In this document: piece after piece, positions 1,794-30,043 of the stretch
Layout: each line of letters begins with the position of its first letter
Position numbering within the stretch: the stretch's first letter is position 1
Translations under genes and position numbers: made by a program
Notes under the pieces: generated by a model
The model's input: the letters and a program-made list of their open reading frames with translations, nothing else
Told to the model about the DNA's origin: nothing
Database searches by the model: none
Assembly (NCBI RefSeq): GCF_014647375.1
Contig: NZ_BMPB01000008.1
Coordinates: 310,001 to 374,000, forward strand
Direction: 5' to 3'
DNA length: 64,000 nucleotides
Source of the DNA: Parabacteroides faecis
GTDB taxonomy: Bacteria; Bacteroidota; Bacteroidia; Bacteroidales; Tannerellaceae

Positions 1794-1835
1794 TACATTA
1801 AAATTTTAAGTTTGGAGGCTTGACATGAAGCTAAT

Positions 1836-2909: not shown

Positions 2910-2940
2910 AATATATTATTCTATTAAAATTTCAATTATT

Positions 2941-4185: not shown

Positions 4186-4203
4186 TATTATTTATGATTA
4201 AAT

Positions 4204-6490: not shown

Positions 6491-6496
6491 ATCCGT

Positions 6497-7105: not shown

Positions 7106-7135
7106 AGATGTCCAAACATTTATTAAAAGTTATCT

Positions 7136-8193: not shown

Positions 8194-8201
8194 TTTTTTA
8201 T

Positions 8202-9281: not shown

Positions 9282-9307
9282 ATTTCACATTGGTTTAATC
9301 ATCAATA

Positions 9308-10180
9308 CTACAATAAAATTTTATTCTCAAACGTCAATTGGTTATCTGCATCTTCCAAACTAACAAATGACGCACTATTTAATAATTTTTGCATTTTTTC
9401 AAAAGCACCTTTAGTTCCTATGCTGGATTTCACATAACGCATCATCCGATTTTTCACACTTCCATTTTCTCGGAAATAAGTTTCATATTCTATCCTTGTC
9501 ATCATGCCATCTTGATTATGAATCAAATCTCCTATATGGAAATAAGCAATAAAATAATTATTATGAGACATTTTATATTTTATGAACTGCAAAGGGAAAA
9601 GGCGAAAATATCCTCCACCTGAAAAAGCAAAATCCTTGCCTAACATGTGTGTCAACGCAATGGGAAATTCTTTCAATTGAACATTATTATATTCTATTAA
9701 AACTGGATTGTTAGCAGGGAAAGCTGGAAAACCACCAAAATCTCTCACGGCCGGATAGATAGAAGAATCTCTCTCTATACCACATTCTGCCAAAATTTCA
9801 ATAGCCCATTTATTTTTTTCTCCAATAGAAAAAGCCGGTGCACGATAGCTTACGACAGATTGTCCACTTACATCTTGTAGTGCATCAATAGCTTCTTTCG
9901 TATCTTCTTGCAATTGTTTTGGAGTCATTTGAGTTAACCATAAATGTTCGTTGGAATGGCAACCAATCTCATGTCCTCTCTCCGATATTTTTCTTATAAC
10001 ATAATGAAAATCAGCGGCGATTCTTCCTACACAAAAAAAAGTTGCCTTCTGATTATTTTCATCAAGAATGTCAAGTATCTTGTTTAAATAAGAATCAAAC
10101 TTCCTATATTTTTCCACCCGACCTCCACAAAACTTCTTTTCGATATACCATTCCTCTATATCAAACGATAGTATATTCAT
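9308..10180 (-). CDS. Polysaccharide deacetylase (NodB family, DUF3473-like)
   Basis: A 290-aa NodB-fold carbohydrate esterase. The metal-binding Asp lies in FDIEEWYIEK at the N-terminus and the His pair in GCHSNEHLWL near residues 93-102; SYRAPAFSIG is the third conserved block. The C-terminal third with GGGYFRLFP and FHIGDL matches the DUF3473-containing deacetylases found in exopolysaccharide loci. No signal peptide is seen, so it probably acts on lipid-linked sugars at the cytoplasmic face. Its ATG overlaps the stop of the upstream acyltransferase gene (ATGA at 10177..10180). Confidence 0.88.
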   Translation of the reverse strand: MNILSFDIEEWYIEKKFCGGRVEKYRKFDSYLNKILDILDENNQKATFFCVGRIAADFHYVIRKISERGHEIGCHSNEHLWLTQMTPKQLQEDTKEAIDALQDVSGQSVVSYRAPAFSIGEKNKWAIEILAECGIERDSSIYPAVRDFGGFPAFPANNPVLIEYNNVQLKEFPIALTHMLGKDFAFSGGGYFRLFPLQFIKYKMSHNNYFIAYFHIGDLIHNQDGMMTRIEYETYFRENGSVKNRMMRYVKSSIGTKGAFEKMQKLLNSASFVSLEDADNQLTFENKILL

Positions 10181-10764
10181 AACTCTTCGCGCTTTTGTAT
10201 TTGTTTTATTACTTTAGCTGGACGCCCCATCGCTATAGTCCATGCCGGAACATCCTTGATCACTAATGAACCGGCACCAACAATAGCCCCTTCACCCACT
10301 GTTACACCAGGCATCACAAAAGACTCCATACCAATCAAGCACCCCTTTTTCAAAACAATTGGTTTCAGTACATATCCTAAAGCTAAATATTCATCACCCA
10401 CACAGTAATCTGAAAAATCACGTTGATGACATAGCAGACGTGTTCCACCAGCAATACTTACACCGTCTTCAATGATAATTAAATCCGAATGACCAGAATC
10501 AATCTTTACTGTATCTCCAATAAATACGTCCTTTCCCACATGACATCCTATTTGCCGCAATACCCATGGGCGTACTTTTCGAGGCAATAAGGGAGATAAC
10601 ATCCAATTATTCATCACCCAACTCAAAAGAAAAGAGTCTCTAAAAGTTTTATGTACCCGTTTTATCAATTGCCATAATGTAACTTGACCATAATCCTTTT
10701 CAGAATAATGCATTCCAAGAATACGCAAAAAACGATAAGTTAAACTTAATTTTTCAGAATTCAT
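10177..10764 (-). CDS. Hexapeptide-repeat O-acyltransferase (WcaF/LacA-like)
   Basis: A 195-aa trimeric left-handed beta-helix acetyltransferase. Hexapeptide repeats run from about residue 75 to 185 (GKDVFIGDTVKIDSG, IEDGVSIAGGTRLLCHQRD, GCLIGMESFVMPGVTVGEG, IVGAGSLV), ending in the family tail AMGRPAKVIKQI. The His in LLCHQRD is the likely catalytic base. It probably O-acetylates a sugar of the repeat unit using acetyl-CoA. It is coupled downstream to the deacetylase by a 4-bp overlap and follows the GT4 gene by 2 bp. Confidence 0.87.
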   Translation of the reverse strand: MNSEKLSLTYRFLRILGMHYSEKDYGQVTLWQLIKRVHKTFRDSFLLSWVMNNWMLSPLLPRKVRPWVLRQIGCHVGKDVFIGDTVKIDSGHSDLIIIEDGVSIAGGTRLLCHQRDFSDYCVGDEYLALGYVLKPIVLKKGCLIGMESFVMPGVTVGEGAIVGAGSLVIKDVPAWTIAMGRPAKVIKQIQKREEL

Positions 10765-10766
10765 AA

Positions 10767-11942
10767 CTATGCTTCTATTACATTAATAATATGTGGCCAT
10801 ACCACAGATGAATCAAAATTTTCGCATATCCAACTACGTGAATAGCGTCCCATAGAAGTCCGAATCTCTCCATTTTTTAGCATTAGTTCAATTTTGTCAG
10901 CAATAGACTCTGGCGTAATTTCACAATACACACCGGTTTTATCCTCAATTATCGAATCTATACAGCCTGTTGATTTTGATACGATTGCAGGTACTTCCAT
11001 AGCCCCACATTCAATTGTAACCATACCAAACCCCTCTCTATATGAAGGCAACACCATTATGCTAAACAATGCAAAATACTTGTGAATCTCAGTATACTCA
11101 ACACGTTCCACATGTATTACATCATTACAAGTATCTATATATTTACGCAGTCCAACGCTAATACTATCACGCGATTCACTACTGCCAATAATAAACAATT
11201 TAAGATTATTACCATCACTATATTTTTGCTTGAGTAACTTAAAAGCATCTACAAGTTCAGCCACTCCCTTGTCTCGCACTAAGCGTCCACAAAAACCAAT
11301 CACAAAGTCACCGTCTTTTATTCCTAGTTTTTTTTTCAAAACATCCTGCTCCGAGTCTATCAATCTATCAGGATTAAATCTGTTGACAGTGTCAATGCCA
11401 CCACAAGTACCGGCACCAAGGAAATATTCTTGTGCACTGGATTCTATTCGATACTTTTGTCTAATATTTGCGACCGATTTACTTACACATACTGTCTTAT
11501 GTGCCATCATTGCAACAATCTTATCCATCAAAATGACAAATATTCGCTTGCCCCCATTTAGGGTCTCAAAAAGTACGCCATGAGCAAAAATAATTCTATT
11601 TGGAACACGCATCAGAAATGCAGCCATTGTTCCCAAAAGCCTAGCTTTAGCTTGATGAGCAATAACTGTGTCAATATTATTTCGTCTTATATATTTGCAA
11701 ATTGCTACAAATGCCTTAATATCACTCCATGGAGACAACGTACGCACCAGTTGAACGGGATGATATTTGATTTGATTTTGCGTTGCATAGTCTTGTATCA
11801 TGTCGTCAGGGCTACATATCAAATGCATATCATATCCATTTTGACGAAGATACATAAACTGACCACCAATGAAATTTCTGGCACTACTTGCCAGATTAAT
11901 AATTTCAAGTATATTATGAGCCTTACTCTTATTAGTATTCAT
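10767..11942 (-). CDS. Glycosyltransferase family 4
   Basis: A 391-aa GT-B transferase. The N-terminal domain contains NTDVIAHQ-like and IIFAHGVLFETLNGG segments; the donor domain shows IGFCGRLVRDKGV (about residue 218) and the E-x7-E region YREGFGMVTIECGAMEVP. It adds one sugar of the repeat unit on the cytoplasmic side; donor and linkage are not predictable. The start overlaps the stop of the preceding GT gene (ATGA at 11939..11942). Confidence 0.88.
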   Translation of the reverse strand: MNTNKSKAHNILEIINLASSARNFIGGQFMYLRQNGYDMHLICSPDDMIQDYATQNQIKYHPVQLVRTLSPWSDIKAFVAICKYIRRNNIDTVIAHQAKARLLGTMAAFLMRVPNRIIFAHGVLFETLNGGKRIFVILMDKIVAMMAHKTVCVSKSVANIRQKYRIESSAQEYFLGAGTCGGIDTVNRFNPDRLIDSEQDVLKKKLGIKDGDFVIGFCGRLVRDKGVAELVDAFKLLKQKYSDGNNLKLFIIGSSESRDSISVGLRKYIDTCNDVIHVERVEYTEIHKYFALFSIMVLPSYREGFGMVTIECGAMEVPAIVSKSTGCIDSIIEDKTGVYCEITPESIADKIELMLKNGEIRTSMGRYSRSWICENFDSSVVWPHIINVIEA

Positions 11943-13222
11943 AATTTATCACCTAAAACTTTATTAAAAAATATTTTTTTAATCATATCTGCATTGTGAT
12001 TCTTCTCACCACAAATTCGAGCATTGGTTGCCATTTCCCTTTGCAAAGTCGGATTCTCTATCAGATTTTGCAACCTCGTCAAAATTTCATCTTCTGTATT
12101 GCATATAATGGCAGCCTTCTGTTCGGTAAAATATTCCATTGAAGCTATATCATTGGGACCTATAGCCAAAATACAACGCCCCTGACTCAAATAGTCTGTT
12201 ATTTTTGTTGAAAATGACAGCCTCGCTGTCTTATTGTGAATATCATATATATCTTCCACAAACACTAAAATATCAGACTTTATCTGCTCCTCTTTCACCT
12301 GATCCTGTGGGATCGTACCTTTTAAATAACTTGTACCATCGACAGCCAATTGTTTCACTTGCACCTCAGTCAGCAGAGTCTGTGTGTATATATCTAAATA
12401 GGCCTTACATCCTTTCTCGTTAATCTTCTTTAGAGCTCGCACAATGGCCATCACAACCCTATCGCGACCTATATTCAATTTACCCGTATATATTAATCGA
12501 TATGGTTGTATTGGATTGTAAACTTCTGACACTTGCGGTAGTGACACAATGGGTTTTGTGACAATAGTAGAATTGACTCCAAATTCCTTGTCACACTCAG
12601 CCTTCATTTTAGGGCATATTGTAAGAATTTCATCACACTGATAAACAAGGCTTTTTACAGAACGACGCGTAAAGAAACGCCCTATCTTATATGACAATTT
12701 ACTACTTTGTTTATATGTAAAATTGTCATCCCATAATACTCCAATTACACGTTTGGGATTACAATATTTGATAATGAATTCATTCAGATTGTTAAAATAA
12801 ATATAACTCTCTATAGGGAAGACAAGTACATCAGGATTAAAGTCGTCCAAAAATTCCATAAGTTCCTTAGTCTTCCAGTTTCCCAACATCCATGCTATCT
12901 CACGTACAGCAAGAAATAACAGATTCCTATTGCGCGAAAAATATGCATAGCGTTTCTTTTCCAATTGCAATTCCGTACTTATTTCATTTGAAAAAATAGA
13001 AACTTCTGAACCAGTCATTGCTCCGCGTTTGAATACGCTTTTTACGACCTTCCCTTCCAATATTTGAAAGTACCTTGAGCACACATCCGAGTCTGGTAAT
13101 TCAGCACGCATATAGATGTTGGCAAATTCATGCTCTATATTACCCTCAAGCAATGTGCTAAAGGAGTCATAGCCTGTCTTTTTACTCCAAGCAGGTATAG
13201 ATGTGATAAGTATTCTTGACAT
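11939..13222 (-). CDS. Glycosyltransferase, GT4-like
   Basis: A 427-aa GT-B-like protein with a divergent N-terminal domain. The C-terminal donor-binding half is clearer: PYRLIYTGKLNIGRDR at about residue 242 and RLSFSTKITDYLSQGRCILAIGP near residue 347, then NTEDEILTRLQNLIENP. Similar proteins occur in Bacteroidetes capsule loci as hypothetical or group 1 transferases. Donor and acceptor unknown. Translationally coupled to the next GT by a 4-bp overlap; the polymerase gene ends 12 bp upstream. The region is visibly more AT-rich than the housekeeping genes further right. Confidence 0.8.
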   Translation of the reverse strand: MSRILITSIPAWSKKTGYDSFSTLLEGNIEHEFANIYMRAELPDSDVCSRYFQILEGKVVKSVFKRGAMTGSEVSIFSNEISTELQLEKKRYAYFSRNRNLLFLAVREIAWMLGNWKTKELMEFLDDFNPDVLVFPIESYIYFNNLNEFIIKYCNPKRVIGVLWDDNFTYKQSSKLSYKIGRFFTRRSVKSLVYQCDEILTICPKMKAECDKEFGVNSTIVTKPIVSLPQVSEVYNPIQPYRLIYTGKLNIGRDRVVMAIVRALKKINEKGCKAYLDIYTQTLLTEVQVKQLAVDGTSYLKGTIPQDQVKEEQIKSDILVFVEDIYDIHNKTARLSFSTKITDYLSQGRCILAIGPNDIASMEYFTEQKAAIICNTEDEILTRLQNLIENPTLQREMATNARICGEKNHNADMIKKIFFNKVLGDKL

Positions 13223-13234
13223 TTAGAATTACAT

Positions 13235-14467
13235 TTAAGAGCTCTGTTTTACTGTATACATACTGCATGTATATATTACAACTGGCACAAAAATAGAAAT
13301 CATAAACCACCCCTCTTCACCAAACAATCCTTTAGTATATAGGAATACAGTAGCAATACATATACCTAAGTAATAATAACTTCGCGATAAATGGTTACAG
13401 AACTTTTTTTTCCAAACTATTATCTGACTAATAAGAAGCATAATGAAAGGGATACCAGCCAAAAGCCCCATACCACCTAATCTATCCAAAATAACAGAAT
13501 GGCCGCCTACTTGATCCCCACCCCAAATCATATTAGACAGAAATGAATCCATTGAAATAGCATGCAAATTTTCTCGACCAGTTACAGCCCCTATTTCATC
13601 CTCTCCTCCTCGATAGAGAGCCAAAAATGATTCCATTTTTGGTTGCACTGCAGTGCCTTCAAACCAACCACATAAGAACTCTAAAAAATGCTCTACCACA
13701 TTGAAAGAATATATTATGAGTACGCAAACCATTATTATTACAAGACGAAAGAAATTGATACCACTTTTCTTTCCATATGAAAGAAAAAAAATAATACAAA
13801 TCAACATCGCTACTAAAGATGTTGTAACATTGGTATTTAAAACAAGTATAATATTACAAATTAATAGGACGAGTGCAACCAGTTTATGCTTCCCTTCTGC
13901 TGATATATAACCCATAAATGCTACAGGCAAAGACATTGCAAAAGCATGCATCAATGTATACCCAGGCAATCCCAAGACATGGATATCTAATTCGGCTTGG
14001 GTTGCCAATAATCTCATATCATAATGCATAACGATGGGAAGTACAGAAACAAAAGAAATTAGATAAACAGCGACTGATATCAAAGCGACATAGTTATATA
14101 CTTTTAGATTATTACGATACCACAATATACTAACAATACTAAATGAAGGCAGTGTCCATGCTATCTCTATTAATAGTTTCTTCGATACAGTAGCTTTCCC
14201 AATACCAATAGTTATATCTGCCCCAAAGAGGAAAAACAATGTCAATATACCAAAATAACAAAGAGCCCAACCCATTAACTTGTTTTTATACGCATTAGGG
14301 TATAATATAACACACATTAGAAATACAAATATATCAACCGTCTGGCTATCTAATGGGAAATAATCTGACAGCAACGGGAATAAAATAAACGCTGCAAAAA
14401 ATGTATATACAGTAAGAAATATTTTATCTTTTCTTGTTAAAATATCTGTATTTAGGTATTCCATCAA
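13235..14467 (-). CDS. O-antigen/capsule polymerase, Wzy-like
   Basis: A 410-aa integral membrane protein with about ten or more hydrophobic segments spread along its length and a large hydrophilic loop at about residues 265-330 (CGWFEGTAVQPKMESF to GGDQVGGHSVILDRLGGMG). A long periplasmic loop in the C-terminal half with DRLGGMGLLAGIPF is typical of O-antigen ligase/polymerase proteins. It would join flipped repeat units in the periplasm. Sequence conservation in Wzy is low, so the call rests on topology and on its place among GT genes and a flippase. Confidence 0.8.
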   Translation of the reverse strand: MMEYLNTDILTRKDKIFLTVYTFFAAFILFPLLSDYFPLDSQTVDIFVFLMCVILYPNAYKNKLMGWALCYFGILTLFFLFGADITIGIGKATVSKKLLIEIAWTLPSFSIVSILWYRNNLKVYNYVALISVAVYLISFVSVLPIVMHYDMRLLATQAELDIHVLGLPGYTLMHAFAMSLPVAFMGYISAEGKHKLVALVLLICNIILVLNTNVTTSLVAMLICIIFFLSYGKKSGINFFRLVIIMVCVLIIYSFNVVEHFLEFLCGWFEGTAVQPKMESFLALYRGGEDEIGAVTGRENLHAISMDSFLSNMIWGGDQVGGHSVILDRLGGMGLLAGIPFIMLLISQIIVWKKKFCNHLSRSYYYLGICIATVFLYTKGLFGEEGWFMISIFVPVVIYTCSMYTVKQSS

Positions 14468-14478
14468 ATATTTGAATA

Positions 14479-15501
14479 TTAGAAAGTATCAATATCCATG
14501 AAAGATAAAGCCCAATTCTGAGGATTCAGGCAAATCTGTTTCATTTCGTCTGTAAGAACCTTGACACCATGATTAGCAAATTTTTTAGACTGTAAAAAAC
14601 CAAGCTTTTTATAAAATTTATACAAAGGATGGTTTAATGTCATATCTGCAAGGACTAACTCAGGCTTAATTTCCTTATTGAATGCTTTAAACAAAGCTTT
14701 GAGGTCGACTCTTGTGTATTTATACAAGAATACTTCACCAATAAAAACAACTACAGTTCCATGAGGCTTCTTACCTATTTTGTATATAATACAACCAAGT
14801 CCATCCTTGCTCCACATCTTGATTCCACTTTGCGATTTCATACGCCACAAGAATGTCTCCTTATCATAGCGGATATGTATAGTATCACTCTTCAGCATTT
14901 CTGCCTCTCGAATATCTAACAAGTGCTCATCTATTGATATTATATGAGATTCAATATCCCAAATAGGAGTTCCTGCAAGTTTACGAATATCAAAACGAAG
15001 TTTCCACAATGTTTTCAACGGATTTAGATATTTTTTAAAGCCTGTCAAAGACTTAATGTAAACCCATCCCAATTTTTCGTAAGCTTTACGAGAAGCCTCT
15101 ACACTAATGTTATAAATTAACTCACCACCTGCCTCATTAAAATATTCATTTAGAAAAGCTTCATTCAGTCTCAAGAATAAATGTTTTCCTCTACATTCCT
15201 TTGATACACAAGAATCAGCATATTGTACACAGATTAATTTCCTGTTACCATAATAGGCATTCATAAAAAATGACGTACGACTACCTACAATTTTTCCATT
15301 TTTTTCCGCCAAATAGCTTACGCCTGTCGATTCTTTCATTACAAAGCTAGCCTTTCTTTCCCAAGAAGTGAAGTGCTCAGACTTCCCCTCACATGACTTT
15401 GCAGGCCATACTTCACAATATAGTTTTACCAAATTATCAAAATCGCTAGGTTCAACTTTTCTTATAATAATATCATCTTTTTCCATCATCTCAAATTTCA
15501 A
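14479..15501 (-). CDS. GNAT-family N-acyltransferase of the capsule operon
   Basis: A 340-aa protein whose first 170 residues are a GNAT fold: IIIRKVEPSDFDNLVKLY at the start, VQYADSCVSKECRGKHLFL for the acetyl-CoA-binding segment, and ASRKAYEKLGWVYI near residue 168. The second half looks like a degenerate or second GNAT-like domain ending in PLYKFYKKLGFLQSKK. It probably acylates an amino sugar of the repeat unit or a nucleotide sugar. It is embedded between a GT4 gene and wzy, with 10-11 bp gaps on each side. The ATG at 15486 (codon 6) is an alternative start. Confidence 0.78.
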   Translation of the reverse strand: MKFEMMEKDDIIIRKVEPSDFDNLVKLYCEVWPAKSCEGKSEHFTSWERKASFVMKESTGVSYLAEKNGKIVGSRTSFFMNAYYGNRKLICVQYADSCVSKECRGKHLFLRLNEAFLNEYFNEAGGELIYNISVEASRKAYEKLGWVYIKSLTGFKKYLNPLKTLWKLRFDIRKLAGTPIWDIESHIISIDEHLLDIREAEMLKSDTIHIRYDKETFLWRMKSQSGIKMWSKDGLGCIIYKIGKKPHGTVVVFIGEVFLYKYTRVDLKALFKAFNKEIKPELVLADMTLNHPLYKFYKKLGFLQSKKFANHGVKVLTDEMKQICLNPQNWALSFMDIDTF

Positions 15502-15511
15502 ATTGTTTCAT

Positions 15512-16645
15512 TTACAAATCGTTCAACAAATCTCGCCACTGCTTACTTATACTTTGTATTGAAAAGTTTTCAGATTTTGAAACAGCTGCTTTTTGCATGG
15601 CTTTTAATTTTGATGGATTTGACATCAATGCATCCAAACGCTCGACATATTGTTCAACACTGAATGCATCTACCAAGACTCCATTTTTATCATCATCAAT
15701 TATGTCAAAAGCCGCTTCATAAGATGAAAAAAGAATAGGACAAACCGCGTAACACATTGATTCACACAAACTTAAAAGCCACCCCTCATATATACTTGAC
15801 ATAGTGAGTATGGAGGCTCTCTTATAATATGACACTACATTTGTTTGGAAACCTTCAAATGAAACAGATTCATGAAGATTATTTTTGTCGACATATAGTT
15901 TCATCCATTCAAGTTTTTCTCCATCACCTAAAATTTCAAGCTTCCAATCTGGATGCATTTTTGAAATTCTATTCCAAACCTCTACTAACAGATGAACACC
16001 CTTTTGTGGCACCAAACGTCCAGAAAAGAGACATAACTTTTCTTTATTATCCAAATCAACAACAACATTATCCGGCTTCTGACATGTTACTGGATTATTT
16101 ATATATGTAAGTTTGGTAGGGTTCGAAATACAGGTTATATATTTGAATATTGGAATAAAACGCTTTGACAACAAAACATATTTGTCTGCATTCTTATACA
16201 TTTTCCTATGGCGTTTCATTGAATATAACCATATTCCAAATCGTTTTACAAGAGCTAACGGTGTATTACCATAATGAAACTTATTACTTAACAAATAACA
16301 GTTAGGTGTATTATGTTCAACAATAATCAACTTTGGACGCTTGTTTACCATTCGTATAGCTGCAAAAACATCATCCTCTTTCCCATAATAGGAATCTTGA
16401 TAAATAATACAGTCTATATGTTCATTATTAATAACCTGTAACAAATCATCACTCAGGTTGTTCTTTTGTTCAAAGTATTTTACATTTTGATCAAGATTGT
16501 TTAATAGTATCTTATCACTCAGCGGATACACAGAAAAAATAGAAATACTGTAGTCTATACACAACTCGTTAGCTAGATACTCAGTAACCTTTTCTATCCC
16601 TCCCAATCCAGGGTAACGAGTACAAAAAAAAAGTATTTTTTTCAT
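15512..16645 (-). CDS. Glycosyltransferase family 4
   Basis: A 377-aa GT-B transferase with the acceptor-side glycine-rich loop TRYPGLGGIEKVTEYLA at residues 8-24, LCLFSGRLVPQKGVHLLVEV at the donor domain start, and MSSIYEGWLLSLCESMCYAVCP in the donor-phosphate region. It acts at the cytoplasmic face on the lipid-linked repeat unit. The gap to the upstream deacetylase gene is only 4 bp. Sugar specificity unknown. Confidence 0.88.
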   Translation of the reverse strand: MKKILFFCTRYPGLGGIEKVTEYLANELCIDYSISIFSVYPLSDKILLNNLDQNVKYFEQKNNLSDDLLQVINNEHIDCIIYQDSYYGKEDDVFAAIRMVNKRPKLIIVEHNTPNCYLLSNKFHYGNTPLALVKRFGIWLYSMKRHRKMYKNADKYVLLSKRFIPIFKYITCISNPTKLTYINNPVTCQKPDNVVVDLDNKEKLCLFSGRLVPQKGVHLLVEVWNRISKMHPDWKLEILGDGEKLEWMKLYVDKNNLHESVSFEGFQTNVVSYYKRASILTMSSIYEGWLLSLCESMCYAVCPILFSSYEAAFDIIDDDKNGVLVDAFSVEQYVERLDALMSNPSKLKAMQKAAVSKSENFSIQSISKQWRDLLNDL

Positions 16646-16649
16646 GCTA

Positions 16650-17435
16650 TTATTTACCAGTTAAAGCCACAATCCTATTGACTAAAGTACTGAATATATT
16701 AAAATACCCTAACACCTTATATATAAATACTCTCATAGGCTCCTCATTCACAATCGAATTACGACCGAAAATAATCTTATCCTCTTTCATATATGAGTAA
16801 TTCATATCTGATGTGTAAATTCTCATATAATTAGAATACTTTACCAAATAATCGTTGGAAGCCTCAGAATAATAGCCAAATGGATAACAAAAGTCATGAG
16901 GTTCATAACCAAGTTCTTTTTTAAACTTTTGATCAACTTCAATAATTTCTAAATTAGGATTAATTGCATTTATATCTGCCATTGAAGGATGTGTAAAAGA
17001 ATGTGCTCCAAAACCAACAATACCACTATTATGCATTTCGCGCACACTATCCCACGTCAAGTAGCTTTTATCTACACCAATCTTCCCCATTGATAGAAAG
17101 ATGTTATACTTAAGTTTCAGAGATTTCATAAAGTCGAAAATCTCTGTATAATTTGAAATCCATCCATCATCAAAAGTAATCACAATATGTTTGTAACAGA
17201 ATTTCAAGTTTTCAGTATTTTCCAACTCATCAAATGTGTATGTGACATATCCGTTATCGTGAAGATATTTCATCTGCTTCTTAAATATATCCACATTTGT
17301 TTGTTGACTACTATATCCCTTGCCCCTAACTATGTCATGATAGTAAATGACGTTTACAAACTTACTCCGTTTATTAAATATACTCCCAATCAACGGGACA
17401 ATATTAAAATATATCACCTTTTTGACAAAATTCAT
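16650..17435 (-). CDS. Polysaccharide deacetylase (NodB family)
   Basis: A 261-aa NodB-fold protein, smaller than and different from the one at 9308. VNVIYYHDIV at the start, IVITFDDGWISNY near residues 79-91 with the metal Asp pair, the metal His pair in FGAHSFTHPSM, and HDFCYPFGYYSE are all canonical blocks. A weak hydrophobic N-terminus could be a membrane anchor. It may remove an N- or O-acetyl from the growing glycan. Two deacetylases plus two acyltransferases in one operon suggest heavy acyl-group tailoring of the repeat unit. Confidence 0.87.
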   Translation of the reverse strand: MNFVKKVIYFNIVPLIGSIFNKRSKFVNVIYYHDIVRGKGYSSQQTNVDIFKKQMKYLHDNGYVTYTFDELENTENLKFCYKHIVITFDDGWISNYTEIFDFMKSLKLKYNIFLSMGKIGVDKSYLTWDSVREMHNSGIVGFGAHSFTHPSMADINAINPNLEIIEVDQKFKKELGYEPHDFCYPFGYYSEASNDYLVKYSNYMRIYTSDMNYSYMKEDKIIFGRNSIVNEEPMRVFIYKVLGYFNIFSTLVNRIVALTGK

Positions 17436-17443
17436 ATCACAAT

Positions 17444-18622
17444 TTACTGATAGAGTAAAATATATTCGTTAAACCGACTTTTTTGATCAAACGCTTTAGA
17501 AGCCTCCAAAATATCTTCTTTCACAAATCTTTTAGTCGAACATATAGATTCAATTTGTAGCTGCAAAGTAACTACATCATTACACTCAACAATAGCACCG
17601 ATCTTTTCGTTTATAATTTCCGGACTACCGCCAGTACGAAAAGTGACTACCGGAGTTCCACAAGCAATTGCCTCCATATTGACCGTAGGATAAGTATCCT
17701 GTCTGGTTGCATTAACAAAAACATCTGCTGCTGAATAAATTTGAGCAAGTTCTTGCTGGCTTGTCGTTTTATGGATAGAAATAATATTTGAAGGCAATTG
17801 TTTATCAGTATCAGCATTAGTACCAACAAGAACAACTTGATAATCGCAAGGTAATCGTTCCGCAAGTTTGATAAAAACATCCAATCCTTTGCTATATCCC
17901 CAACCAAATGACACACCAAGAACAATATGTTTATTACCTACACCATATTTAATCTTGAAATCACTTGATACTGGTTTGAATACAGAAAGGTCTATACCAT
18001 TATTAATTACAATGACTGGATAATCCTTAAACATAGACTGCTTTACCAAACCTGCCAACCATTTTGATGGAGTAATAATGGTTAAATCAAGTCCTCTCCG
18101 TATTGCGTACTTCTTACGTTTATACAACTCCGTACTCCTGTCAAACAACCAACTATATACTTTTCGCTGTGGACAATTATGACACTGAATTTTCCATTTG
18201 TCACAATCAGCAATCACAAAATGTGAACAATAACCAGTAAAAGCCCAACAATCATGAAAAGTCCAATATACTTTGAGTTTTTTCTTGCGTAAATAATTGA
18301 ACAATATCCCAATGTTGCAGTTATGGTTGTGAATATTGTGTAAATGCACAATGTCTGGAGCTAAAGATTCCAATTCAAATATTAACTGATGAGTTACCCT
18401 TGTTGCATTAAACCCATATCCACCAAAAAGTTTAGCTTTAAGAGCCTGCCATTTTACATATCTATCGCTTGAATACTTAATGCCACAAAAATGATTAGAA
18501 TGACCACTTGTATACAAGATATAGTTTTCTATACCTTGTTTTGTAAGCAAGTCACTGACTGCAACACATATTCTACCAATGCTTCCTGCATCACAAGTTG
18601 CATTTATCTGCACTACCTTCAT
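17444..18622 (-). CDS. Glycosyltransferase family 4 (WcaC/WcfG-like)
   Basis: A 392-aa GT-B transferase beginning with VVQINATCDAGSIGRIC, the usual start of Bacteroides group 1 transferases in capsule loci. VHLHNIHNHNCNIG and the Cys-rich CDKWKIQCHNCPQR segment (about residues 140-153) are family-typical. The donor domain has VLGVSFGWGYSKGLDVFI and RQDTYPTVNMEAIACGTPVV. The start codon directly abuts the stop of the upstream transferase (no spacer). Donor sugar unknown. Confidence 0.9.
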   Translation of the reverse strand: MKVVQINATCDAGSIGRICVAVSDLLTKQGIENYILYTSGHSNHFCGIKYSSDRYVKWQALKAKLFGGYGFNATRVTHQLIFELESLAPDIVHLHNIHNHNCNIGILFNYLRKKKLKVYWTFHDCWAFTGYCSHFVIADCDKWKIQCHNCPQRKVYSWLFDRSTELYKRKKYAIRRGLDLTIITPSKWLAGLVKQSMFKDYPVIVINNGIDLSVFKPVSSDFKIKYGVGNKHIVLGVSFGWGYSKGLDVFIKLAERLPCDYQVVLVGTNADTDKQLPSNIISIHKTTSQQELAQIYSAADVFVNATRQDTYPTVNMEAIACGTPVVTFRTGGSPEIINEKIGAIVECNDVVTLQLQIESICSTKRFVKEDILEASKAFDQKSRFNEYILLYQ

Positions 18623-19642
18623 CTATTTAATGTACTTTCTAAACCATTTACCAACTCTATAAAACATCGGAATTTGACGTAATGGATAGTAAACGAACAA
18701 ATCTTTTACTGCCCAAAAATATGATTTATTAAATAAGGCACGCTGAACGAACATGCTTTCTTCAAATTTTGGATCAATAACTATATTATCATTGTATACA
18801 ATTTCTCCTAACTCCTCTGTTGGTCTATTACCATAAACAGCAGCCATACCATGGTCATAAGAGGGGTCATAATTCGTTGCTTCCGCATCAAATCCTATAT
18901 TCGACACCATATTCACCTGTGGGTAAATATTATAAAGCCCATACTTAAATGATATATATAACATCTGTATATCATAACTTCTACTAATTCTGCCATTTCT
19001 CTTTTCACTTAAATGTCGTTCAAATTTCTTGGTGTACCAAATACGTTCGAACCAACTATTGAAATTAGCCTTATAACTTGGAGTCTTGAAACAATCATAA
19101 AATGTATCTATCCCAAATTCATACTTTTGGTGGGTACGCTTCCATGTTGCCATGCCATAAGTAGAAGCTGGAATTCTTGAATAATAATAAGATGCACTAC
19201 CATAATGCTGTCCAAAATTTACACCTCCAATATAACCAATATTATCATTGTCTTTATATCGTTCCAACAAATCCTGACAATAAAAAAAGAATGATTTAAC
19301 AGGAAGAGAATCATCTTCTAAGAAAATCATTCTATCCTCATATTCGAAGAGCCAACTCCAAGCAGAGTATCCACCCATTGCACACCCCTGATTCTTCTCA
19401 TGGAATAAGTAATGAGCGTCACAATCCCAATCTACATTCTTTACGATTTGCCTAACTTTATCGCAAGCCTTTCGTTCATCTGGTCTGTCTTCACGAGGTG
19501 CATCTGCTGCTACATATAGTTTTGTTGGACGAACTGAACGTATTATGTCAAAAATTATCTTCGTTTTATCAGGTCTATTAAAAACCAATAAAAGTACAGG
19601 AGTTATAAGTTTTTGATTCGCAATCATATTTTCTAAATTCAT
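18623..19642 (-). CDS. Glycosyltransferase, GT2/GT-A-like
   Basis: A 339-aa GT-A-fold protein. It starts after a short lead with PVLLLVFNRPDKTKIIFD, followed by KLYVAADAPRED; the metal-binding acidic triad is in MIFLEDDSLPVKSFF (about residues 111-125). WLFEYEDRM and IGYIGGVNFG match the putative sugar transferases common in Bacteroidetes polysaccharide clusters. Probably a retaining or inverting nucleotide-sugar transferase acting on the repeat unit. It lies 6 bp downstream of the flippase gene. Confidence 0.83.
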   Translation of the reverse strand: MNLENMIANQKLITPVLLLVFNRPDKTKIIFDIIRSVRPTKLYVAADAPREDRPDERKACDKVRQIVKNVDWDCDAHYLFHEKNQGCAMGGYSAWSWLFEYEDRMIFLEDDSLPVKSFFFYCQDLLERYKDNDNIGYIGGVNFGQHYGSASYYYSRIPASTYGMATWKRTHQKYEFGIDTFYDCFKTPSYKANFNSWFERIWYTKKFERHLSEKRNGRISRSYDIQMLYISFKYGLYNIYPQVNMVSNIGFDAEATNYDPSYDHGMAAVYGNRPTEELGEIVYNDNIVIDPKFEESMFVQRALFNKSYFWAVKDLFVYYPLRQIPMFYRVGKWFRKYIK

Positions 19643-19648
19643 TTACAA

Positions 19649-20893
19649 TTACTTTTTTCTATCTTTTTTTATTTGGAATAAAAGGCACAAAATATTTGTA
19701 ACAATGAATAGCATAAATGTAACAATATGCCCATAAGCAGCTCCATAATAAGACCCAATCCTCACAAGAGAACTAATCACCAATACAGATAATAAACTGG
19801 CAATTACTTTAGTTGTCAAAACGCTTTTAGAATAGCCGGCAGCAACAGTTATATCGTTCACTAAATAAAACCCAACAACAAAAATTTGTGCAACAGATAA
19901 TATTTGAGAATATTTAGCTGATTCAATATATCTTCCAGCGGTCAATATGTCAATTACGAATGGAGCTAGTATAATATAAAATAATACAACCAATGTTTCG
20001 GCAGCAAGCAAAATAACACAAACTCTGATGAGTTTTGATTTATTAAACTTTGCAACGGATTCATACAAATCAGGATTGAATGTAGAATACAATGCCATTG
20101 TAAAAATATTTATGTATCTCGCGAATTGATCTCCTACACAATAAATACCATATTCATTTGTATCACCAACACGCTCTAATAAAACTCTACTATAACCATT
20201 AGTAAAAAACTCTAAGCATCCAGCAATAGCTAAAGGCCAACAAAAAGACAATAGCTTTCTTAACAATATTAAATCTATTCGTTTAAAAATATATTTTTTC
20301 AATCTAAAAAAAGTAATAAGAAAGAATACAAATGATGAAACAAATGTTGCAAATTCATACCCCCATGCTCCTTGATGAAGTAAAACAACGCATATTAATA
20401 TTGTTATTACTCTAAATATACCACTTGATATACAATATTTACAATACTCCCTTGTTTTTCTTTCTATTCGATACTCAGCAAGCTGAAAACTAAATAAACC
20501 ACTTATCCAAATAGCACCTATGGAGAATAATAATAATGGAAAAAGTGGTATATTTGATTCTGTATTAAACAAATAATGATAAAAACATATGCCACCCCCA
20601 ACAATTATTGACATAAAAAGCGAAAATAAAATCAACGATTGAACCACCAACGTTTTTAACCGCATTCGCTCTTCTAAATCAATCTTATAGTAATTTGAAA
20701 GGTAAAATCTCGTTATAAAGAATTGGATTAATGGAGTCTCTATCGCAGCAAAGGATGACAAATAACCTATAATCCCATAATCAAATGGAGATAAATTCTT
20801 TGCAAGAAATGGATTAATAGCAACCAACAATACCATCGGGATAAGCGATGATAGCAAATATAATCCTGTATCTCTTACAATTTTCTTCAGCAT
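19649..20893 (-). CDS. Repeat-unit flippase, Wzx-like (MOP/MATE superfamily)
   Basis: A 414-aa polytopic membrane protein with about 12 hydrophobic segments and the N-terminal arrangement of Wzx/RfbX proteins: YLLSSLIPMVLLVAINPFLAKNLSPFDYGIIGYLSSF. It would move undecaprenyl-linked repeat units to the periplasmic face for the Wzy-type polymerase at 13235..14467. It is the first classic assembly gene of the operon after the interruption by the MntA-HepT pair and two broken genes. Confidence 0.88.
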   Translation of the reverse strand: MLKKIVRDTGLYLLSSLIPMVLLVAINPFLAKNLSPFDYGIIGYLSSFAAIETPLIQFFITRFYLSNYYKIDLEERMRLKTLVVQSLILFSLFMSIIVGGGICFYHYLFNTESNIPLFPLLLFSIGAIWISGLFSFQLAEYRIERKTREYCKYCISSGIFRVITILICVVLLHQGAWGYEFATFVSSFVFFLITFFRLKKYIFKRIDLILLRKLLSFCWPLAIAGCLEFFTNGYSRVLLERVGDTNEYGIYCVGDQFARYINIFTMALYSTFNPDLYESVAKFNKSKLIRVCVILLAAETLVVLFYIILAPFVIDILTAGRYIESAKYSQILSVAQIFVVGFYLVNDITVAAGYSKSVLTTKVIASLLSVLVISSLVRIGSYYGAAYGHIVTFMLFIVTNILCLLFQIKKDRKK

Positions 20894-20932
20894 TATTTTA
20901 TTAACACAATTCTATTTTAACCATCTTATCCA

Positions 20933-21112
20933 TCACTCCCATATAGTTATAATCTTCACTATTTTAATTGAAGCATCTTCCACATATACAAAAACGGAAA
21001 TACCATGATCGCCTTCTTTGTTCATCTCTATCGCTGTTTCTACGAATTACATAAAATGGTTCGCATCAATACTACCTCTAAAATATCCTTTCTCTATTTC
21101 TACAACTTCCAT
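20933..21112 (-). pseudogene. Small open-frame remnant with an in-frame TAA
   Basis: An ATG at 21112, three bases after the phosphatase-family gene stop, opens a frame MEVVEIEKGYFRGSIDANHF that meets TAA at 21047..21049. It then continues in the same frame for 37 codons (FVETAIEMNKEGDHGISVFV and so on) to TGA at 20933. The protein-like composition on both sides of the stop suggests one former gene of about 58 residues or the end of a longer one. I do not recognise the family. The lesion type, a single in-frame TAA, is the same as in the gene immediately upstream. Confidence 0.4.
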
Positions 21113-21115
21113 TAA

Positions 21116-22168
21116 CTATCTATTTGCTATTCCTTTCCAAACCACCATATTATGATCACTATAAGATGTCTCCGGCGAATAGCATTCACACCCTTTCAAC
21201 GATTCCGAATAAAAAACATAATCAATCCTCCAGAGCTTGTATAACTGGCGGAACGTATATTGGTAACCACTCCCACAATCATGGAAACCGTCAACCAGAT
21301 CTTTTCGCACTCGATGATATGTATAAGAAGCTGGTGTATCATTGAAGTCACCGCAAACCAGCACCGGATAAGGTGAGCATTTGATCTCAGCATGGATCGT
21401 ATCGGCCTGTTCAGCTCGTTTCCGATAGTTACTTTTCATTTTTAACACCAAATCTTTGACTGCTTTTGCACGAATTTCCAAACTCTTACCGGGAGTGGTA
21501 ATGATACCGCGATAAGCATTGACGCTTGTTGTCTCGAAATGGTTGTTGACTACACGGATGTATTAATTGTTTATCCGTACATCAGCTATCAATGACATAT
21601 TCCGAGAATTTTCATAATAAAGAGCCTTTACCAAATGGATGGGGTAACGGCTGTAAATCATTGTTGGCAAATGGTCGGTACGCCGACTGATATATTTATA
21701 CAAAACATAATCAAAAGCGTATCGGATACTGTCACGGTGGTAATAACCATCACCGGGTACTTCCTGAAAACAGACAATATCCGGCTGAAGTTCCTTTATG
21801 TAAGCTGCAGCTTCATTCATTATGTACATCTTATTCCAACTAAAATGACTGGTATTGTAAGTGACTACAGTCAGAGGCGTCCCTTCCGAATCTACAACTT
21901 CTAGTTTATTCCAATAGAGTGGCTGATAAACTGCCAATAAATAATCTATATGTAGTAGAATGGCAAACAGAGAAATAAGGCTTCTCCACTTCTTCTTTGT
22001 AAACAATTGGATTATTCCCATCAACAGATTACCCGCCAATATTGGCCAAACAGCTAATGTCAGAAGAGAAAGCCAAATACAAATACCCTCTACATAGTAC
22101 CCTCCGATCAAACAAAGAAAGGATAAGATAACAAAGAATATCTGAAAAAAGTTATTTAAACTTTTCAA
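21116..22168 (-). pseudogene. Endonuclease/exonuclease/phosphatase-family gene broken by one in-frame TAA
   Basis: One continuous frame of 351 codons encodes an EEP-domain membrane protein. The N-terminal 70 residues are hydrophobic (three short TM segments); then come VVTYNTSHFSW, the metal-binding Glu in DIVCFQEVPG, PVLVCGDFNDTPASY, RIDYVFYS and the final SYSDHNMVV His motif. The only defect is TAA at 21563..21565, between ADVRINN and YIRVVNNHFE, so a CAA or similar codon was probably lost by a point change. All catalytic blocks on both sides remain intact, so the mutation is recent. The family cleaves phosphodiesters of nucleic acids or lipids. The gene is not an obvious capsule function. 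Confidence 0.85.
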
Positions 22169-22200
22169 AGGTATAAAAAGACGAATTCTTAAAGTTGGAA

Positions 22201-22578
22201 TTAATTTTCCGTTAAGTCATTAATCATTTTGTCAATGACAGATAATAGTTCTGGAACATTTTCTTTACTAATTCGAAAAATCTCAAGAGCATCCACATCA
22301 AAATAATGATGAACAATGATATCACGTATTCCCATCACATTTTTCCAAGGAATTTCCGGATAATTAATCAGAAACTGTCTATTGGTTATTTTGTCTAAAT
22401 TCTTTAAACTTTCTCCGATAGCTGTCAATTTCATACAAATACTATCGAGAAGAGTAACACCACTCTCGCTTAACAAAAAATCATCAGGTGAATGGATAGC
22501 AGAAGAACGCTTGATGATTTGTATCAAAGAGTCATGAAGCAACTGCAAGATATGGAGTACTACTAGTTTATTACACAT
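22201..22578 (-). CDS. hepT: HepT-like HEPN toxin RNase
   Basis: A 125-aa all-helical HEPN protein (DUF86 group). The catalytic R-x4-H-x-Y motif is present as GIRDIIVHHYFDVD near residues 85-98. In MntA-HepT systems HepT is an RNase toxin that MntA neutralises by adding AMP to the Tyr of this motif. The gene overlaps the upstream nucleotidyltransferase by 8 bp, the usual order for this module. It sits inside the capsule operon, downstream of the first gene, so its transcription would follow the phase state unless it has its own promoter. Confidence 0.87.
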   Translation of the reverse strand: MCNKLVVLHILQLLHDSLIQIIKRSSAIHSPDDFLLSESGVTLLDSICMKLTAIGESLKNLDKITNRQFLINYPEIPWKNVMGIRDIIVHHYFDVDALEIFRISKENVPELLSVIDKMINDLTEN

Positions 22579-22864
22579 AAATACCCTCCTTTAAAATTCG
22601 ATCACGCAAAAAAGAGTCCATTTGCTTTCGCAAACGTACGATATCTACTTTACAACCTAATAGTTCTTCCAATTCACATTTAATGCCTGACAAAACAAAG
22701 AAGCCGCGTAACTCTCCCTCCACATATATATCTACATCACTATTTTCAGTCTGTTCATTACGCGCAACAGAACCAAATATCCCCATCCGGGTAATACCGT
22801 AATTGTCGGCATTCCTCTGCATATATCCTCGCAGTAAAGCGATGTATTCTGTTGTTGATTTCAT
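22571..22864 (-). CDS. mntA: MntA-like minimal nucleotidyltransferase antitoxin
   Basis: A 97-aa minimal nucleotidyltransferase with the signature GIFGSVARNEQTENSDVDIYVE (G-S-x10-D-x-D) at about residues 29-50 and a third acidic residue in CKVDIVRLRK. These antitoxins polyadenylylate the partner HEPN toxin and so silence it. It is the upstream member of the pair and is separated by only 34 bp from the end of the WbpM-like gene. The pair is complete and intact, in contrast to the two broken genes downstream. Confidence 0.87.
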   Translation of the reverse strand: MKSTTEYIALLRGYMQRNADNYGITRMGIFGSVARNEQTENSDVDIYVEGELRGFFVLSGIKCELEELLGCKVDIVRLRKQMDSFLRDRILKEGIYV

Positions 22865-22898
22865 ATGTTATAAATTTCTTATTTACAAAGATAGAAAT

Positions 22899-24815
22899 TT
22901 ATTCCTTATCCAACACCTCATACTCCGAATTCTTACTCTTGAACTCCGGTACAATCCCTTTCATCATTTGGACTGTTCCCATCTTATCGACTTTAATCGC
23001 CAATGTAATCAGCGGGTTCATAACCGTACAAATATCATTGTAATCATATTCTCTCACTTGGGCACGATATATTTTGGCATTATTGGTAGAAAGGGTATTT
23101 TCTTTCGTTGCCAGAAGTTCCTCATACAGCTTTTCACCTGGGCGAAGACCGGTATATTGGATTTCGATATCCTCGCCGGGAACAAGACCAGCCAGTTCGA
23201 TCATACGACGAGCCAGATCAGCGATCTTTACAGGGGTTCCCATATCGAATACAAAGATTTCATTACCCTTACCCATAAAGGCCGCTTCGAGTACCAAACG
23301 ACACGCTTCCGGGATTGTCATAAAGTAGCGGATGATGTCGGGATGAGTCACTGTTAAAGGACCTCCTTTTGCCAATTGCTCACGGAAACGGGGAATAACA
23401 GAACCGTTACTTCCTAAAACATTACCAAAACGGGTCGTGATAAAACGGGTTTTACCCGGATGCAAGCCTTTGCTGATAGCGATACTTAAACTTTGTACAT
23501 AGATTTCAGCCAGGCGTTTGGAAGCGCCCATTACGTTAGTCGGATTAACCGCCTTATCGGTAGAAATCATTATAAATTTATCTACATTGTATTTGACAGC
23601 CATATCCGCTACATTGCGAGTACCATATACATTCGTATGAACAGCCTCACAAGGATTTTCCTCCATCAAAGGTACGTGCTTATAAGCAGCCGCATGAAAC
23701 ACATATTGAGGTTGAAAACGCACGAAAAGAGATTCTACACGGTCGATCATCCGGATATCTCCCATTACAGGAGTAAACTCTACCTGAGGAAATTTTTCTT
23801 CCAGTTCCAGACGTATATTATGCATGGGAGTTTCAGCACTGTCGAATAAGATCAATTGTTTCAGATTGAATGTACATAATTGACGACAGAGTTCGCTGCC
23901 AATAGAACCGGCAGCTCCAGTGACTAAAACCACTTTACCTTTTAAGGATGCGGCGATTTCAGCCATATTGATACAGATTTCCTCACGGCCCAATAAATCT
24001 TCTATATGTACTTCAGGAAGATTGTGAAAATTAACCCTGCCTTTCTTCAATTCATCGACAGAAGGGAGTATCAACATACGAACCTTCTTCTTTTCACAAT
24101 AACGGACTAAACGCTCACTCTCTTCTTTTACTAAATGATAGTCAGTAAACAGAACAGCTTTAATATTTTTCCTGTTAACCAAATGATTAAAGTCTACCTG
24201 TTTTTTGATTGAGTAAATTCTGTATTTTCCTACACGTAAACAGGTGTGATCGCCAAAACGTAGGAAACCACAAACTTTATACAGCAGTTTGTCGCTCAGG
24301 GAAGCATCAAACAAGAAAGTCCCGGATTTATCACCCTGATAAATCAATAGTTTTCCTTGATTTAAGGATACACTATTGACTATAATCGTATAGAAAACAA
24401 TCATGAAGACACGGAGTATTGTTAAAAGGAAGAATGTGAGGGATAAGTCTACTACAGCTCCTAAGGCTAATTCACGAGGAGATTGAATCGTCGTGGTCAG
24501 GTAGACCAAAACAACGATGAAAAGTACCTTTATTAATGAGGATAAAGCGAGACGTCCGGCTTCTGTAAATGCAGAGTGCCGGATCACACCTTTATAGGTC
24601 TGGCACAAAAAGAAACTTGCCAGACTACTGCAGAAAGAAATGAATAATATATGAAAAAGAGAATCGTCTACAAGCTCTGTCCCAAGGATATACCACAGGA
24701 ATGACAGAGAAGTAGCAGTTGCCAGAATTGATAAAAATAAATCAATAAATAGGACGATCCAACGGTTAAAAAATTTAACGCGTGATAATACTAGTGCAAA
24801 ACCATTGATATTCAT
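22899..24815 (-). CDS. WbpM/PglF-type membrane nucleotide-sugar 4,6-dehydratase
   Basis: A 638-aa protein. Residues 1-145 contain four hydrophobic segments; 150-280 form a CoA-binding-like domain; the SDR catalytic domain starts at VVLVTGAAGSIGSELCRQL (about 295), with FHAAAYKHVPLME and NPTNVMGASKRLAE. Met replaces the SDR tyrosine, as in UDP-GlcNAc 4,6-dehydratases of the CapD/WbpM group. It makes UDP-4-keto-6-deoxy-GlcNAc, the substrate of the PglE-like aminotransferase. It is the promoter-proximal gene of the capsule operon, 99 bp from the left palindrome of the invertible-promoter candidate. No UpxY/UpxZ-type antiterminator gene precedes it, unlike many Bacteroides capsule loci. Confidence 0.92.
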   Translation of the reverse strand: MNINGFALVLSRVKFFNRWIVLFIDLFLSILATATSLSFLWYILGTELVDDSLFHILFISFCSSLASFFLCQTYKGVIRHSAFTEAGRLALSSLIKVLFIVVLVYLTTTIQSPRELALGAVVDLSLTFFLLTILRVFMIVFYTIIVNSVSLNQGKLLIYQGDKSGTFLFDASLSDKLLYKVCGFLRFGDHTCLRVGKYRIYSIKKQVDFNHLVNRKNIKAVLFTDYHLVKEESERLVRYCEKKKVRMLILPSVDELKKGRVNFHNLPEVHIEDLLGREEICINMAEIAASLKGKVVLVTGAAGSIGSELCRQLCTFNLKQLILFDSAETPMHNIRLELEEKFPQVEFTPVMGDIRMIDRVESLFVRFQPQYVFHAAAYKHVPLMEENPCEAVHTNVYGTRNVADMAVKYNVDKFIMISTDKAVNPTNVMGASKRLAEIYVQSLSIAISKGLHPGKTRFITTRFGNVLGSNGSVIPRFREQLAKGGPLTVTHPDIIRYFMTIPEACRLVLEAAFMGKGNEIFVFDMGTPVKIADLARRMIELAGLVPGEDIEIQYTGLRPGEKLYEELLATKENTLSTNNAKIYRAQVREYDYNDICTVMNPLITLAIKVDKMGTVQMMKGIVPEFKSKNSEYEVLDKE

Positions 24816-24914
24816 AAGTCACAAATTAGGGGTGTTATGTAAAAAAGTTCGTCAGTCCCAAGCGGCCAACCTACATAAACAACTGAAAATCTTATACTTG
24901 AAGGTTATTGGAGT
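24816..24914 (-). promoter_or_regulatory. Constant part of the capsule-operon leader
   Basis: The 99 bp between the first capsule gene and the left palindrome hold no leftward TTTG/TAnnTTTG promoter that I can find. If the adjacent segment were inverted, transcription would start at about 24952 and this stretch would form most of a leader of roughly 137 nt. In the present orientation the operon appears to have no promoter of its own. Confidence 0.5.
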
Positions 24915-24944
24915 GACTAAAAAAAACGATCGTTTTTTCTAGTC
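24915..24944. repeat. Left 30-bp palindrome of the invertible segment
   Basis: An inverted repeat with 14 of 15 base pairs, centred on CGATCG and flanked by A7 and T6 runs, ending in TCTAGTC. It differs from the right copy at one position (A instead of G at 24920). The imperfect position gives this copy a direction that the right copy lacks. Confidence 0.85.
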
Positions 24945-25045
24945 AGCTTTATTTGACTAATATATGTTAACCTATGATTGAAGCGGCATTTTGAAAAAAC
25001 AAGATCAAAACATTGAAAAACAAATAGATAAAATTCCCAAAACCT

Positions 25046-25076
25046 TTTGTATTTCAATAAATATCTCCTACATTTG
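25046..25076 (+). promoter_or_regulatory. Bacteroidetes promoter inside the invertible segment
   Basis: TTTG at 25046..25049 and TACATTTG at 25069..25076 (consensus TAnnTTTG) are separated by exactly 19 bp. Predicted start is near 25083, just before the right palindrome. It points to the plus strand, towards the terminator at 25209..25245 and away from the capsule genes. Confidence 0.8.
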
Positions 25077-25085
25077 CAGCACAAA

Positions 25086-25125
25086 AAAATGACTAGAAAA
25101 AACGATCGTTTTTTCTAGTCATTTT
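25086..25125. repeat. Right palindrome of the invertible segment, 40 bp perfect
   Basis: The central 30 bp (25091..25120) match the left copy at 29 positions and are a perfect palindrome; five further flanking pairs extend it to 40 bp. AT-rich arms with A6/T6 around CGATCG make a transcription terminator less likely than a protein-binding or recombination site, although a hairpin role is possible. Confidence 0.85.
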
Positions 25126-25208
25126 AATTTCAAGACCTTTCAAAATTTTATAAGATTCACAAGAACTAACATATTAATTCATCTGCAACATCATTTTTAA
25201 CCATAAAA

Positions 25209-25245
25209 AAAGCCCTGAAAAGTATTATAAACTTCTCTGGGCTTT
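25209..25245. terminator. Hairpin downstream of GH92 and of the OFF-state promoter
   Basis: AAAGCCC at 25209..25215 pairs with GGGCTTT at 25239..25245, extended by further imperfect pairs (GAAAAG with CTTCTC). On the minus strand a T-run follows, fitting the end of the GH92 transcript. On the plus strand CTTTCTTTAT follows, so it could also stop transcripts from the OFF-orientation promoter before they run antisense into the GH92 gene. Confidence 0.65.
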
Positions 25246-25266
25246 CTTTATAAGAATTGATTCCTT

Positions 25267-29849: not shown

Positions 29850-30043
29850 ATATGAGAAGAAAGCCGCACCCTAGATATGAACAAACTCCGTATGACAGGA
29901 TTTGAGTGCTTTGCCACCTTTGTAATCCGCTGTGCGATGCATCCCCGAAGGGTGCGGCCCGCCATTAGCGACAAGAGCTGTGTCTCGGAATTAAAATAAA
30001 CTGATGAGTTTCCCAATCGAACAAGTGCGGCTAACTCATTTTT
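29815..30043 (-). ncRNA. Bacteroidales-1-like structured small RNA
   Basis: A roughly 230-nt independent transcription unit directly downstream of rplT, flanked by a strong promoter and an intrinsic terminator. That is the location and layout described for the Bacteroidales-1 RNA motif. The 5' end (ATGAG, then GCCGCAC; plus-strand 30025..30039) pairs with the 3' end (GTGCGGC, then CTCAT; 29852..29869), giving a closed rod. The same 3' GGGTGCGGC (29863..29871) can alternatively pair over 9 bp with an internal GCCGCACCC (29950..29958). A rod with ends paired is also 6S-RNA-like; I cannot decide between these from sequence alone. Confidence 0.75.

Follow-up and report, generated by a model that had tools for sequence, protein, structure and literature searches.

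The window, by which we mean the whole 64,000-nucleotide stretch of DNA analysed here, carries on its minus strand a putative 24-kb polysaccharide operon (645-24815), followed on the right by a short segment bounded by two palindromes and then by a GH92 gene (Table 1). Judged from the predicted functions of its genes, a polysaccharide is well supported as the product of the operon and a capsule is likely. The first gene belongs to the Polysacc_synt_2 family and is not upxY, which comes first, along with upxZ, in capsule loci of the B. fragilis type. Further inside, the MntA/HepT-like pair adjoins what appears by eye to be a broken Exo_endo_phos gene (21116-22168). The GH92 gene likewise reads leftward, which places it upstream of the operon and codirectional with it; on the plus strand, the first frame of at least 100 aa to the right of the segment starts at 26050 and overlaps the GH92 gene. 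When the whole window is searched with Rfam at gathering score, a single family is returned, Bacteroidales-1 (29856..30032, minus strand, 179 bits), a suggested 6S RNA.

Table 1. Coordinates of the operon, the neighbouring gene and the features between them
Feature	Coordinates	Strand	Remarks
Left recombination site	24914..24945	.	32-bp palindrome, one mismatch, core CGATCG
Right recombination site	25090..25121	.	perfect 32-bp palindrome, core CGATCG
Putative invertible segment, both sites included	24914..25121	.	208 bases
Bacteroidales-type promoter TTTG-N19-TACATTTG	25046..25076	+	points away from operon (OFF)
Right palindrome, terminator-like read leftward	25086..25125	-	hairpin then T run
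Shared leader element GGACTGACGAACTTT	24844..24858	-	predicted 3' arm of leader hairpin
First operon gene	22899..24815	-	638 aa, Polysacc_synt_2 (NDP-sugar dehydratase/epimerase family)
Remainder of putative polysaccharide operon	645..22898	-	glycosyltransferases, DegT aminotransferase, epimerases among its genes
MntA/HepT-like pair	22201..22864	-	below NCBIfam cut-offs; HepT above Pfam cut-off
Flippase-like gene	19649-20893	-	in putative polysaccharide operon
Wzy_C-like frame	13235-14467	-	score below cut-off
Sugar transferase gene	6497-7105	-	in putative polysaccharide operon
GH92 gene	25267-27510	-	right of segment

Palindromes and promoter upstream of the operon

A first-pass annotation of this DNA had described two 30-bp palindromes 146 bp apart. 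The feature is real, although one base had been trimmed from each end: the palindromes measure 32 bp and lie 144 bp apart, and with its flanks the symmetry of the right one reaches 40 bp. A pattern for these sites that tolerates up to three mismatches occurs at just these two places in the window and in none of 100 window shuffles, and both sites rank among the best-scoring of the genome. Each has AT as its central dinucleotide. Since the cores are self-complementary, the orientation of the pair is unreadable; inverted and direct arrangements look the same, and the geometry alone would permit excision too. The same annotation had referred to repeats close to ARACGTWCGT as those of the invertible promoters at Bacteroides and Parabacteroides capsule loci. 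The palindromic pair stands, but neither site matches the consensus exactly, their central dinucleotide being AT. As a definition of the sites the exact consensus was rejected, as its 54 matches in the genome equal those of the reversed control (30+24 vs 34+20) and none falls on a window site; exact matches do fall on both sites of the element at C15:210067 and on one of those at C8:294732. A site model derived from 19 sites of the genome itself took its place.

Between the palindromes lies a consensus promoter aimed away from the operon, as had been noticed at first inspection. It scores 10 of 10, and no leftward candidate in 24816..25266 exceeds 7 of 10, in agreement with the earlier statement that no leftward promoter is visible in this interval. 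The motif is weak on its own, because its two matches in the window (0.53 expected) are equalled by 7 of 100 shuffles. The call is instead carried by its location, with 13 bp separating it from the right site's inner edge, and by its conservation in three related genomes, in which the promoter is aligned, with ATTG as the -33 box in one of them (G019). In the present orientation the promoter would fire away from the operon, which should then be silent. Once flipped, it would drive transcription of the operon, down to its end at 645, with a leader of about 138 nt; this leader length, close to the 137 nt first proposed, presumes a start 6 nt past the -7 box, an offset that is our assumption. The right palindrome folds strongly, and in the OFF orientation it could shield the operon from read-through out of the GH92 gene. 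A role as a general OFF-state terminator was rejected, as the T run is interrupted in G019 and at two other elements of the kind described below (L067 and L077), and the suggestion is kept for the window only.

Site pairs in four genomes and the Mpi-family recombinase

With the best 150 of 7830 candidates scored, the site model gives at least 105 strand matches up to E 0.5 in the 6.66-Mb genome, which is that of a Parabacteroides close to P. goldsteinii and P. gordonii, and these resolve into at least 24 pairs and a few singles. The analysis below covers 68 pairs, namely 24 of the window's own genome (G000) and 44 of G019, G022 and G024, the latter being the pairs around a subset of their sites, among the matches listed. 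The central dinucleotide is identical within the pair in all 68. Thirty-one pairs have the self-complementary AT core, and the other 37 are inverted without exception (37/37). Two pairings at L130, a G024 locus with three sites (G024:C11, 5567-5949), had been left out before this count: 5567/5744, which is direct with the sites 177 bp apart, and 5567/5918, which is inverted with the sites 351 bp apart. The last two of the three sites are inverted and 174 bp apart. A recombinase that crosses over at two bases requires a dinucleotide that is matched and inverted; a terminator does not.

Start-to-start distances of the 68 pairs cluster at 140-144, 150-155, 162-166 and 172-177, with gaps between the clusters. 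When periods between 10 and 11 bp are tested against uniform spacings, the best one has p 0.0035 for the own genome (11 distinct values) and p 0.002 for all pairs (19 distinct values), with a range of 0.0015-0.0035 across reduced sets. Spacing in steps of about one helical turn is a lead only, because periods from 10.5 to 11.5 fit about equally and because the elements are related. Synapsis of a short loop in a fixed helical phase would account for such clusters; no titles on site spacing of this kind appeared in the part of the literature searched.

Promoter boxes accompany most of the pairs. Of the 68 elements, 59 have a full TAnnTTTG box no more than 16 bp from an inner site edge; when the middles are shuffled the average is 2.1, and among 539 stretches outside the elements 12 have one. 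At 5 of 6 positions, a box is present in 62 elements (21.7 with shuffled middles; 77/539 outside) and missing from the other 6. Scripted calls on the 62 boxed elements returned 35 OFF, 1 ON, 24 with genes on both sides and 2 with no target. The 24 two-sided elements were read by hand from the nearest gene start, skipping short frames that overlap the segment (L073, L100), and gave 20 OFF and 4 ON (L083, L085, L105, L110). Two of these ON calls are doubtful, L085 because its target, a CAT-family acetyltransferase gene (L085:5529-6197) at which its box aims, is 371 nt away, and L110 because its box has 5 of 6 positions. Partly by hand reading, then, 55 of the 60 callable elements in the four genomes are OFF and 5 are ON.

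The cargo beside these elements is varied. In a Pfam scan of first genes, Polysacc_synt_2 was found at L067 and L083, glycosyltransferase family 4 at L068 and L080, DUF6383 in four large proteins of 987-1366 aa at L064, L069, L071 and L075, TonB receptor plugs at L066 and L087 (in the second gene at L087), sigma factors beside L076 and L078, and DUF3575 beside L077. Elements of 173 bp (164 bp at L075) stand beside large open frames at L064, L065, L069-L075, L079 and L086. Among the large-frame elements of the own genome, DUF6383 is present in the four scanned, and by our reading 11 are OFF and one (L074) has no target. A single AT-core site on C12 (L081:2687-2718; G000:C12:2687) has a G019 counterpart, L103, that belongs to a pair, and its right flank matches L103. 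Its interpretation as an excision scar was rejected: the left flank matches none of the loci compared, and the other side of L103 matches none of the own loci compared next to the site, so that the flank comparison supports neither excision nor recombination between loci.

One sister element is found in both orientations. The inner segment of L105 (G022) is reversed relative to L075 (G000), L100 (G019) and L128 (G024), while the flanks on both sides can be aligned. In two of the comparisons the gene-side alignment is short (84-93 bp at 98%); that of the far flank extends over 1.5-1.8 kb. This element carries the same AT core as the window (CGATCG). Two further pairs of loci are discordant on one flank only: L099/L123, with a weak inner match of 72% over 71 bp and L123 at a contig end, and L105/L117, with a weak inner match of 75% over 55 bp, the two being probably paralogues. 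In all four genomes the window locus stands OFF, and because of this its inversion is something that we infer rather than see.

The constant orientation of the window bears on two other explanations. In one, the promoter is fixed and serves a short rightward RNA, the palindromes are terminators and no inversion takes place; besides the single orientation in four of four genomes, the strong, terminator-like fold of the right palindrome read leftward would suit it. However, terminators leave unexplained both the matched cores, which are inverted wherever readable, and the sister element with two orientations, and the first plus-strand frame of sufficient length to the right overlaps the GH92 gene. 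We therefore consider this the least probable of the explanations weighed here. In the other, a switch that once worked is now locked OFF at this locus, as the shared OFF state might indicate. Yet OFF in four genomes is no surprise, because most callable elements in these genomes are OFF, and the high scores of both window sites also argue against this reading; a locked switch is very unlikely.

With regard to the enzyme, the genome has four places with a Resolvase domain. One of them, P0001 on C13, scores 323 bits against a cut-off of 272 on the NCBIfam model of the master DNA invertase Mpi family, and G019, G022 and G024 each encode a counterpart with 95-97% identity to it. It is the only one of the three serine recombinases scanned that passes this cut-off, the other two (C2:147148 and C7:327453) reaching 187 and 183 bits; the fourth place is a 621-aa frame on C20. 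An invertible promoter driven by one of these other three, or by a tyrosine recombinase, is an unlikely alternative. Such serine recombinase genes are indeed present, and two of them do match the Mpi model, but below its cut-off; moreover, in four genomes the P0001 start is preceded, at a distance of 57-58 bp, by a degenerate copy of the site, and the matched central dinucleotide fits a serine recombinase. Across the genus, P0001 has a match at E 1e-10 or better in 35 of 39 genomes, and sites at E 0.001 or better are present in 20 of 39. A P0001 homologue of at least 60% identity, a level that two of the 15 reach over part of their length, occurs in 15 of the 16 genomes with at least five site matches vs 11 of the 23 with fewer (p 0.003, kinship not corrected for), and one genome, G004, has 41 site matches without a homologue of this identity. 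Recombinase and sites are thus only loosely tied across the genus.

The degenerate site upstream of the Mpi gene is solo (L082:6374-6405; G000:C13:214873) and identical in the four genomes. As proof of Mpi autoregulation it was rejected: its surroundings are nearly as conserved in the four genomes, its genome-wide E is only 0.147, and the 3.6-kb loci of 11 P0001 homologues from other species of the genus have no such upstream site. The Mpi gene adjoins a fucose-pyrophosphorylase/GHMP-kinase gene.

Taken together, the segment at 24914-25121 is very probably an invertible promoter that is flipped by a serine recombinase of the Mpi family, whose gene lies at another place in the genome, and stands here in the OFF orientation for the 24-kb polysaccharide operon. 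The proposal of a phase-variable promoter captured OFF, made in the first-pass annotation, is thereby supported by the 24 or more site pairs of the genome with their matched cores, the Mpi-family recombinase, the sister element in both orientations and the presence of an operon in front of the mirror-image promoter. The recombinase, for which P0001 is the best candidate, would pair the two palindromes, cut at the central dinucleotide AT and flip the intervening DNA. Elements with these sites would then number at least two dozen, the window segment included, and their neighbours are capsule-type operons and genes for DUF6383 proteins, TonB-dependent receptors and sigma factors.

A leader element shared by polysaccharide operons

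Downstream of the segment, the first base of GGACTGACGAACTTT lies 43 nt upstream of the start codon of the window operon, and the leader element GGACTGACGAAC is common to polysaccharide operons of the genus (loci L168-L197), polysaccharide genes having been tested for at five own loci and assigned elsewhere by frame length. The pattern KGACTGACGAMCNTT, derived from own loci, matches 31 times across 12 of the 39 genomes, with 5 of the matches in the own genome, whereas its reversed control matches 4 times. Of 30 leader-element loci, 23 have the element starting 39-44 nt upstream of an open frame and 6 have it 25 or 78-163 nt upstream; L173 was set aside because it resembles coding sequence. Among the own-genome switches that precede such operons, one is ON (L083) and four are OFF (the window, L067, L068 and L080).

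Together with the preceding 26 nt, the motif is predicted to form a hairpin, with a mean energy of -10.1 over 20 non-redundant leaders (a set in which the G022 orthologue stands in for the window leader). When the upstream parts are shuffled the mean is -4.9 (-6.6 in the lowest of 200 sets), and when they are displaced it is -3.9. In a more stringent comparison, with the entire stretch shuffled by dinucleotides, the mean z over 30 leaders is only -1.5, and the window's leader is among the weakest hairpins (-7.8, z +0.4). Because the 3' arm is invariant, two-sided compensatory changes are not possible. There is no Rfam match at the window leader, and the literature searched, with partial coverage, contains no such element; at E up to 1, Rfam gives 11 matches for 8 of the 30 leader loci, and all of them lie off the element: a tRNA, a weak S15 leader and microRNA models that fall short of their gathering scores.

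Two NusG-domain genes were found in the own genome, neither of them in the window operon. One is NusG (175 bits vs a cut-off of 136), located by eye between tuf and rplK. The other, the only UpxY-family gene found in the genome (L199:1477-1974; 119 bits vs a cut-off of 100), precedes a CpsB/CapC-family gene. UpxY-family homologues occur in 12 of 12 genomes with the leader motif and in 11 of 27 without it, two of them near 30% identity (p 0.0003, kinship not corrected for), a co-occurrence hinting at one trans-acting antiterminator.

These observations allow a broader model, which we offer tentatively and with somewhat less than even confidence. Two controls would act in series on polysaccharide operons in this Parabacteroides branch: inversion of the promoter by Mpi, and a leader hairpin common to the operons, with the invariant 3' arm GGACUGACGAAC, the latter read by a single unlinked UpxY-family antiterminator that would gate those operons left ON. 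Sites would be stepped by about one helical turn, and the central dinucleotide would sort the loci into groups that recombine only among themselves.

Relation to known systems

The invertible promoter is of a known type, and the shared leader element is the less expected part. In B. fragilis, Mpi is a master serine recombinase that acts in trans on at least thirteen regions, with seven polysaccharide loci (PMC5903667). The likeness to that system lies in a promoter segment between inverted repeats and in one master serine recombinase for many loci (PMC5903667). By contrast, the window sites are 32-bp palindromes with the core CGATCG and not ARACGTWCGT, and the operon does not start with upxY as the capsule loci of B. 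fragilis do. The findings suggest that surface variation in the P. goldsteinii/P. gordonii branch is likewise governed by an Mpi-style global switch like that of B. fragilis; a single genome has at least 24 elements, most of them OFF in the assemblies.

A related system is found in P. distasonis, for which it is reported that inversion sites were detected (PMC5903667), that promoter inversion was suggested (PMC9409006), and that strain ATCC 8503 has 13-14 putative capsule loci, recognised by upxY-like genes (PMC9409006). The same genus, many capsule loci and inversion sites are shared. Unlike P. distasonis, the window genome has two NusG-domain genes, one of the UpxY family, outside the window operon. 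Phase-variable surface glycoproteins of P. distasonis were reportedly described by Fletcher in 2007; their switches are perhaps of the same kind as the elements beside DUF6383 genes, although their cargo is other than a capsule operon.

For the leader element, the nearest parallels are LoaP with the dfn leader hairpin and RfaH with ops, NusG paralogues that read leader elements (PMC12691694). Both share with the window a leader element before long operons and a NusG paralogue as its reader, here predicted, while sequence, host and paralogue family differ. A simple model of how read-through into capsule operons is gated would follow from the leader element together with the one UpxY-family gene, and it would be distinct from the locus-linked UpxY of B. 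fragilis.
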